From Oscillospiraceae bacterium (GTDB lineage Bacteria > Bacillota > Clostridia > Oscillospirales > CAG-272), in contig SVSP01000005.1 in assembly GCA_015064255.1 (NCBI GenBank), forward strand, positions 24,857-88,856: 64,000 nucleotides of DNA, in the 5' to 3' direction. This document shows, in pieces, positions 30,711 through 39,379 of this stretch. The first letter of the stretch is position 1. Each line of letters begins with the position of its first letter. Under the pieces are notes generated by a model that was given only the letters and a program-made list of their open reading frames with translations, was not told the DNA's origin and searched no databases. The translations under genes and the position numbers were made by a program.

Positions 30711-30900
30711 TTTTAAAAAAGTTTTGCTCGAGCTTTTTCAAAAGCTCGCAGGGTTTCTTAAGGGACGGAGTCCCTTAAGTCGCGCGGGTATCAATGCGCG
30801 AAACACACTCGTGCATCTTTCCAAGGGTTCTGCCCTTGGAATCCGGTTAAGAAACTTTTTGAAAAAAGTTTCTTAACAATCTTCAAAAACTTTACTTAAA
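30711..30900. repeat. Composite of several consecutive palindromes (mosaic repeat family)
   Basis: GAGCTTTTTCAAAAGCTC; CTTAAGGGACGGAGTCCCTTAAG; CCAAGGGTTCTGCCCTTGG; AAGAAACTTTTTGAAAAAAGTTTCTT. Confidence 0.85.
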
Positions 30901-30916
30901 TAAATCTTGCAAAAAT

Positions 30917-31108
30917 AAAAACGGCGGAATTTTCCGCCGTTTCAATGTGTAGACAAAGTCATTAAAATTAACTGAGGAAAGGGGAAAACCATCTCAAACG
31001 CCGAAGTTTTTTTCTTTTCCTCAGACTCCTATCCCTTTTCCTTGGCTAAAAACTTTTCTCTTATTATTTTGCCTTCAGTCTGAAACGGCGGATTTTTCCG
31101 CCGTTTTG
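30917..31108. other. Conserved intergenic structured element, copy A, with flanking duplicated terminator hairpins
   Basis: AAAACGGCGGAATTTTCCGCCGTTT ... TTAACTGAGGAAAGGGGAAAACCATCTCAAACGCCGAAGTTTTTTTCTTTTCCTCAGACTCCTATCCCTTTTCCTTGGCT ... GAAACGGCGGATTTTTCCGCCGTTTT; ~90% identical core at 39250-39335 on the opposite strand. Confidence 0.85.
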
Positions 31109-34559: not shown

Positions 34560-34960
34560 TAGTAAAGTTTTTGGGAAACCAAAACCCTTTTTTCAAAAAG
34601 GCTTTGTACAATACAAACATACCAAAAACGCAGTTGCGAGTTTTTTCGTTCATTTCTGTGTCGACAGAAATGAACCAAAGAGCGACTTCCGGGAAGGGAG
34701 GTATCCCTTCCCCAAGAGACCCCAACCCTCTTTCGCAAAACCTCCCGACGTCTATGGTCGGTTTTGCTCGCGCCGCGTTTTTCCGCGGCGAATGATACCG
34801 TTAATATTTAATATGATACTTTATAAAGTGCCAACATACAGGAATGTGAAGTTCTTGTTTTTTCTTTTCAGTAAAGTTTTTTGGAATCCAAAACCCTTTT
34901 TACAAAAAGGGTTTTGTCGGGTTCTTAGGGCAGAGCCCTAAGCAGAGGCCCTTTGGCTAA
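34560..34960. repeat. Cluster of mosaic palindromic intergenic repeats
   Basis: AGTAAAGTTTTTGGGAAACC; GTTCATTTCTGT-GTCG-ACAGAAATGAAC; GGGAAGGGAGGTATCCCTTCCC; CGCCGCG-TTTTTC-CGCGGCG; AAAACCCTTTTTACAAAAAGGGTTTT; CTTAGGGCAGAGCCCTAAG. Confidence 0.85.
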
Positions 34961-39183: not shown

Positions 39184-39379
39184 AAAAACGCCTACGGATT
39201 TAATCCGTGGGCGTTTTAGAATGAAAGTAAGAAATAAAAGAAAAATTTTCAGCCAAGGAAAAGGGTTGGGAGTTTGAGGGAAGGAAAAAAACTTCGGCGT
39301 TTGAGATGGTTTTTCCCTTCCCTCAGTTAATTTTATATATGTTGAAATGCCTACGGAAATTAATCCGTGGGCGTTTTTA
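39184..39379. other. Conserved intergenic structured element, copy B, with flanking duplicated terminator hairpins
   Basis: AAAACGCCTACGGATTTAATCCGTGGGCGTTTT ... AGCCAAGGAAAAGGGTTGGGAGTTTGAGGGAAGGAAAAAAACTTCGGCGTTTGAGATGGTTTTTCCCTTCCCTCAGTTAATTTTA ... GAAATGCCTACGGAAATTAATCCGTGGGCGTTTTT. Confidence 0.85.

Follow-up and report, generated by a model that had tools for sequence, protein, structure and literature searches.

The window, that is, the whole 64,000-nucleotide stretch of DNA analysed here, contains two copies of an element of ~142 bp, at positions 30942-31083 on the + strand (copy A) and ~39214-39348 on the - strand (copy B), each lying between two matching hairpins (Table 1). The initial annotation had described an ~85-nt block in two copies on opposite strands, bracketed by near-duplicate hairpins that are unlike between the copies; we confirmed the sequence, strand and coordinates of the block, as well as both pairs of hairpins. 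At copy A, the left hairpin is near-identical to the right one (direct-repeat score 21) and scores as a terminator on the - strand. Read along its strand, the core of the element has a purine arm and a pyrimidine arm on either side of the loop CATCTCAAACGCCGAAG; a turn of three bases then leads to a second pyrimidine tract, which is followed by CTTGGCT. The core was placed at 30964-31048 (+) and 39250-39334 (-) by a covariance model built from 22 copies including copies A and B, whose matches are partly by construction. Two further repeats were observed in the window: 30711-30905, just left of copy A, is a high-copy repeat in the genus, and 34595-34943 (~350 bp) is another high-copy genome repeat, with many matches in the window's own genome (G000) and in genome G002.

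Table 1 Positions of the features of the two element copies in the window.
Feature	Position	Strand	Basis
Copy A left terminator hairpin CGGCGGAATTTTCCGCCG, one copy of the duplicated target	30922..30939		sequence
Copy A left terminal inverted repeat TCAATGTGTAGACAAA	30942..30957	+	right end and ends of the L297 IS1182-family IS match it in inverted form
Copy A purine (R) arm of the core CTGAGGAAAGGGGAAAAC	30972..30989	+	stem covariation
Copy A conserved loop CATCTCAAACGCCGAAG	30990..31006	+	identical in 63 of 106 non-redundant copies
Copy A pyrimidine (Y) arm, Watson-Crick partner of the R arm	31007..31024	+	stem covariation
Copy A third strand CTCCTATCCCTTTTCC, mirror of the Y arm, parallel to the R arm	31026..31041	+	three-strand covariation
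Copy A tail CTTGGC, complementary to loop GCC(G)AAG (putative pseudoknot)	31041..31046	+	near-invariant; one compensatory change (L065, L116)
Copy A right terminal inverted repeat TTTGCCTTCAGTCTGA	31068..31083	+	end comparison
Copy A right hairpin CGGCGGATTTTTCCGCCG, second copy of the duplicated target	31086..31103		sequence; direct-repeat scoring
Copy B head-side hairpin CGCCCACGGATTAATTTCCGTAGGC (read on -)	39349..39373		sequence; direct-repeat scoring
Copy B core (R arm, loop, Y arm, third strand, tail)	39250..39334	-	covariance-model match, 104 bits
Copy B tail-side hairpin CGCCCACGGATTAAATCCGTAGGCG (read on -)	39189..39213		sequence; direct-repeat scoring; single hairpin without element at the G002 orthologous site

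A BLASTN search for further copies, which the initial annotation had proposed, returned 40 matches in the 2.5 Mb draft genome G000, at least 16 in G002 and one in G001. Many of the G000 matches lie at contig ends, where the repeat broke the assembly, and some are two halves of one locus (e.g. L004/L015, L013/L025), so the number of loci is below 40, roughly thirty. Direct reading of the loop identified this core in 29 genomes from 11 genera of the family, and it is hardly present outside the family, with one strong match in another family of the same order (G532). A tally of 69/297 family genomes as the spread of this element was rejected as overstated, since the weak model matches it includes belong to a second, short-loop family. 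The named records with the loop are Clostridia and Oscillospiraceae MAGs, many of them from ruminant guts. A single contig with the loop came from a viral collection (L126, IMG/VR); it carries two copies 3.4 kb apart, and may be a bacterial fragment. Close pairs of cores were tail-to-tail in 21 of 38 cases (e.g. L097, L099, L100, L111, L118) and head-to-head in 3.

Duplicated terminator hairpins and IS1182-like ends

We aligned the copies side by side, and most were found to be bracketed by hairpins that are alike within a copy and different between copies. A direct-repeat score of at least 14 was reached by 18.6% of 172 copies, vs 0.2% of mismatched-flank controls. The initial annotation had suggested comparing orthologous loci to see whether the terminator is single where the element is absent; at the orthologue of the copy B site in G002, the neighbouring genes are the same, the element is missing, and a single hairpin (CCGCAGAaatgacTCTGCGG) is present. 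Among 24 copies with duplicated hairpins, the T-tract is found behind the far hairpin rather than the near one, whichever strand is read (far vs near T of 8: 5.5 vs 2.8, p=5e-5, on one strand; 5.2 vs 3.0, p=1.3e-4, on the other). A T-tract on the far side is the necessary outcome if an element enters a bidirectional terminator at the base of its hairpin and the complete palindrome is duplicated.

The ends of the element are imperfect inverted repeats of the form TCA..TG..GACAAA (left TCAAAGTGTAGACAAA; right, as reverse complement, TCAGACTGAAGACAAA). The terminal motif was found (at least 10/11 positions, at least one flank) in 28/183 copies and in none of the shuffles, and a search with the right end matched 59/297 family genomes, with few matches for the reversed pattern. 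At one locus in genome G061 (L297), two inverted end copies 1582 bp apart, with terminal repeats TCAGACTGAAGACAAA, surround a 495-aa protein that scores 469 bits with the NCBI model NF033551 (IS1182; cut-off 270). The ends are thus shared between the element copies of two genera (g1 and g59) and both ends of an IS1182-family IS. A 51%-identical IS1182-family relative in G088 (L342) has perfect direct terminator copies CCCTGCATTTTATTTGCAGGG on both flanks, and its target was duplicated in the same manner. Because of the matching flanking hairpins, the single-hairpin empty site and the ends shared with an IS1182-family IS, the ~142-bp element is, as judged from sequence comparison, a MITE of the IS1182 type whose terminator target is duplicated on insertion. 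The small mobile element that the initial annotation had offered as one of two readings is well supported by this evidence.

The route to this arrangement would be as follows. A transposase would take the palindrome of an intrinsic terminator as its target, join the element ends at the two feet of the hairpin, and leave, after gap repair, a full hairpin copy at either side, in a chemistry that we propose to account for the anatomy observed. The original A- and T-tracts are seen to remain outside, the gene-proximal hairpin having lost its U-tract and the far hairpin having kept it. Since this shift removes the U-tract of the near hairpin, transcription from either side would run through the element, and whole-hairpin duplication of the IS1182 type would rewire transcription termination at every insertion.

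We investigated whether a helper is encoded in the same genome. An IS1182-type transposase was looked for in G000 with PF13751, giving no match in this incomplete draft, and homologues of the L297 transposase gave no match in four genomes of the window's genus. The missing helper may have been lost or misassembled, the draft being incomplete. With no IS1182 transposase found in the window's genus, the helper would come from the type seen in another genus (g59), and we infer that the element is mobilised in trans by an IS1182-type transposase.

Several loci depart from the simple pattern. Duplicated hairpins with the loop inverted on one side were found at L009, L014, L035 and L199, which counts against simple duplication; these are probably later loop flips, and suggest flipping by template switching or cruciform processing. 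The full-length IS at L297 and a mini-element (L253) sit between unlike rather than duplicated hairpins, which could reflect recombination between copies or insertion without duplication. The L253 element (G122:C2) and a second one (L231, G241:C118) are tiny, with little beyond two inverted ends, and both lie between unlike hairpins. Both hairpins of L003 have counterparts at other loci, the left one on the right side of L021 and the right one on the left side of L024, owing to either recombination between copies or misassembly through the repeat. Four further loci (L298, L299, L303, L305) are MITE-like, with IS1182-type ends and a different conserved core, AATCTACCTGCGTTTCTCTC; terminator duplication is clear at L298 and L299.

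Stem, third strand, loop and tail of the core

The 17-bp stem carries compensatory changes at 12/17 pairs over 22 copies, a level reached in 0/500 shuffles, and the covariation that the initial annotation had proposed to look for is thus present. The second pyrimidine tract, here called the third strand, mirrors the first one. We compared it with the purine arm of its own copy in parallel orientation (T to A, C to G) and obtained a match of 7.71/12 over 106 non-redundant copies, higher than when tracts were swapped among copies (6.35 +/- 0.09) or shuffled (5.72). An antiparallel arrangement of third strand and R arm was rejected, since pairing showed no excess (8.00 vs 8.06 shuffled). The dependence of the third strand on the arm, P(C|G)=0.82 and P(C|A)=0.12, appeared only at offset +1; registers two or more positions off were flat, and the adjacent one (offset 0) exhibited a weaker trend only. 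Against swaps matched for G count, the three-strand register reached z = 12.8. The tract order (5' purine, pyrimidine complement, 3' pyrimidine Hoogsteen strand) is that of class III intrastrand triplexes and was found in the parallel register. As an exception to the triplet rule, A-T arm pairs face A in 30% of cells, and in 14/106 non-redundant copies loop and tail persist with no purine-rich arm.

Replication slippage yields direct or inverted repeats, not mirror repeats; for this reason, selection on a Hoogsteen third strand is the simplest reading. The comparison of copies shows a three-strand arrangement that appears to be under selection. The initial annotation had recognised a structured module, which the stem covariation bears out, but had described a plain hairpin and missed the third strand; because the third strand follows the purine arm, the core is a triplex-type motif rather than a plain hairpin. 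One strand of the core could fold into a class III intrastrand triplex, in which a purine arm, a ~18-nt loop and a pyrimidine arm are followed by a third pyrimidine strand that runs alongside the purine arm in parallel and forms T*A-T and C+*G-C triplets; the tail CTTGGC would pair with the loop GCC(G)AAG, possibly capping the triplex. Both of these last motifs are near-invariant. The sole two copies with loop GGC (L065 and L116, both in G211) are also the sole two with tail GCC, and other loop or tail changes are one-sided; with one compensatory step in one genome and one-sided changes elsewhere, a loop-tail pseudoknot is plausible, not proven. We infer that the core folds in the cell as single-stranded DNA or RNA and aids propagation of the element, for example as a structure that may be recognised when single-stranded.

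The mirror symmetry might instead reflect double-stranded H-DNA, or a protein-binding repeat, and not a single-strand fold of R arm, Y arm and third strand. The classic requirement for H-DNA is a pyrimidine mirror repeat (PMC4666352), and the Y arm and third strand supply one by themselves, but compensatory changes maintain the complementarity of the R arm, which lies on the same strand and for which H-DNA has no need, and a near-invariant loop separates the R and Y arms; we consider this explanation somewhat unlikely, and retain the single-strand, three-strand fold.

The core relative to its carrier, to RNA and to a second repeat family

IS1182-like ends accompany the core mainly in two genera (g1, g59), and most other genera carry the core without them, so the core is either older than its IS1182-like carrier or independent of it. 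The same distribution (11 genera, mostly without ends), together with other kinds of flanking repeat (13 bp at L032, 22 bp at L033), could also mean that the core is itself the mobile unit, e.g. a retro-inserted structured RNA, with IS1182-like ends gained secondarily in two genera. Against this, both g1 and g59 show clear ends and clear duplication of the terminator, and no reverse transcriptase or other linked gene was found between one tail-to-tail pair (L226), which makes this scenario unlikely. The genes between this pair were also considered as an autonomous element and rejected, as they comprise only a host-type 961-aa ORF and no transposase. The best explanation, which we hold with good confidence, is an IS1182-type terminator-duplicating MITE with a separate, conserved, triplex-type core.

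The initial annotation had further argued from G-U wobbles that an RNA may be transcribed from the strand antisense to the upstream gene. Over the family, this proposal is not supported: mismatches do not favour a + strand RNA (19 G.T/T.G vs 28 A.C/C.A), and orientations relative to neighbouring genes have no bias (31 ++ vs 26 --). Rfam, which it had named as a possible source of a known family, returned only a tRNA in the window at curated thresholds, and no match near the gathering score in a relaxed search of six loci (up to E=5). A structured ncRNA or 3'-UTR element of host genes, kept at gene 3' ends for expression control without mobility, would fit the strong stem covariation, the position at gene 3' ends (39 convergent vs 13 divergent contexts) and the better folding of the core as RNA than its shuffles (z -2.3), but is very improbable given the high copy number, the empty site, the duplicated hairpins, the inverted ends, the occurrence in both orientations, and the lack of a G-U bias or Rfam match.

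The weak matches of the covariance model proved to be sequence-unrelated short-loop hairpins, with the typical layout GGGGGAAGGGGAAAACTTTTTG...CAAAAAGTTTTCCCCTTCCCCC-CCCCCATCCCCTTTTCAAAAACTT, and their arms and third strand are arranged as in the core. Their match to their own third strand was 11.4, vs 10.2 +/- 0.2 for swapped and 7.9 +/- 0.3 for shuffled tracts, in a register chosen by hand re-anchoring (controls likewise), a first, badly anchored scoring having shown nothing. In these repeats, the third strand turns purine where the hairpin purines change arm (CTTTCT with CAAAGA, CTTCTT with CAAGAA), as would be expected for an alternate-strand triplex. Short-loop hairpins with such a switching parallel third strand were seen at L353-L380, L334, L335 and L337, and an R-Y-Y member of this family lies just left of copy A at ~30847-30903 (TTAAGAAACTTTTTGAAAAAAGTTTCTTAA then CAATCTTCAAAAACTTT). 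Since purine-motif triplexes are reported not to form in RNA (PMC4666352), the second family hints at DNA as the active form.

Taking both families together, we tentatively put forward a broader proposal, which is possible though doubtful: that mobile elements of gut Clostridia carry selected three-stranded folds (~12-14 pyrimidine-motif triplets, with a loop-tail cap in one family and an alternate-strand triplex in the second), and that folded single-stranded DNA is their active form, probably as the substrate of mobility.

Comparison with known repeats and insertion sequences

Bacterial MITEs that have a conserved internal structure, such as RUP, BOX and Correia elements, are short, high-copy and intergenic, with foldable transcripts. 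The element described here resembles them in these respects, compared by description only, and we know of no triplex layout or terminator duplication in any of them.

The IS1182 family (IS1272/TnSha1) and its derived MITEs share with our element a transposase family with the same ends and a stem-loop target, often a terminator. For IS1272, replacement or partial deletion of the targeted stem-loop, with no target duplication, has been reported (PMC4923244, PMC5678879), whereas here the whole hairpin is duplicated; for the IS1182 family, duplication of a whole stem-loop has been drawn only as a model (PMC5678879). Our element also differs from the family in its length of ~142 bp, its lack of a transposase gene and its conserved core.

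So far, the relevance of intrastrand triplexes in cells rested on motif counts and on in vitro folding of a small number of conserved oligonucleotides. The position-by-position three-strand change, in 11 genera and in a second, unrelated repeat family, provides evolutionary evidence that the arrangement itself is kept, and the core copies are a ready set of natural variants for the study of triplex formation and function. The published search for intrastrand triplexes could not find this family, because it allowed only 1-6 nt loops (PMC4666352). Like PIT/BoxC/TM-ECO of enterobacteria (PMC4666352), the element is a multi-copy intergenic repeat with one strand able to form an intrastrand triplex. 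By its tract order (R-Y-Y) and layout it falls outside their 37-nt G/C-rich class II consensus, and its layout is class III of the same study (5' purine, pyrimidine, 3' Hoogsteen strand). In TM-ECO, a purine-motif (class II) repeat of 37 nt, the loops are poorly conserved, whereas the element described here has a ~18-nt near-invariant loop, stems that vary with three-strand covariation, and a tail complementary to the loop.
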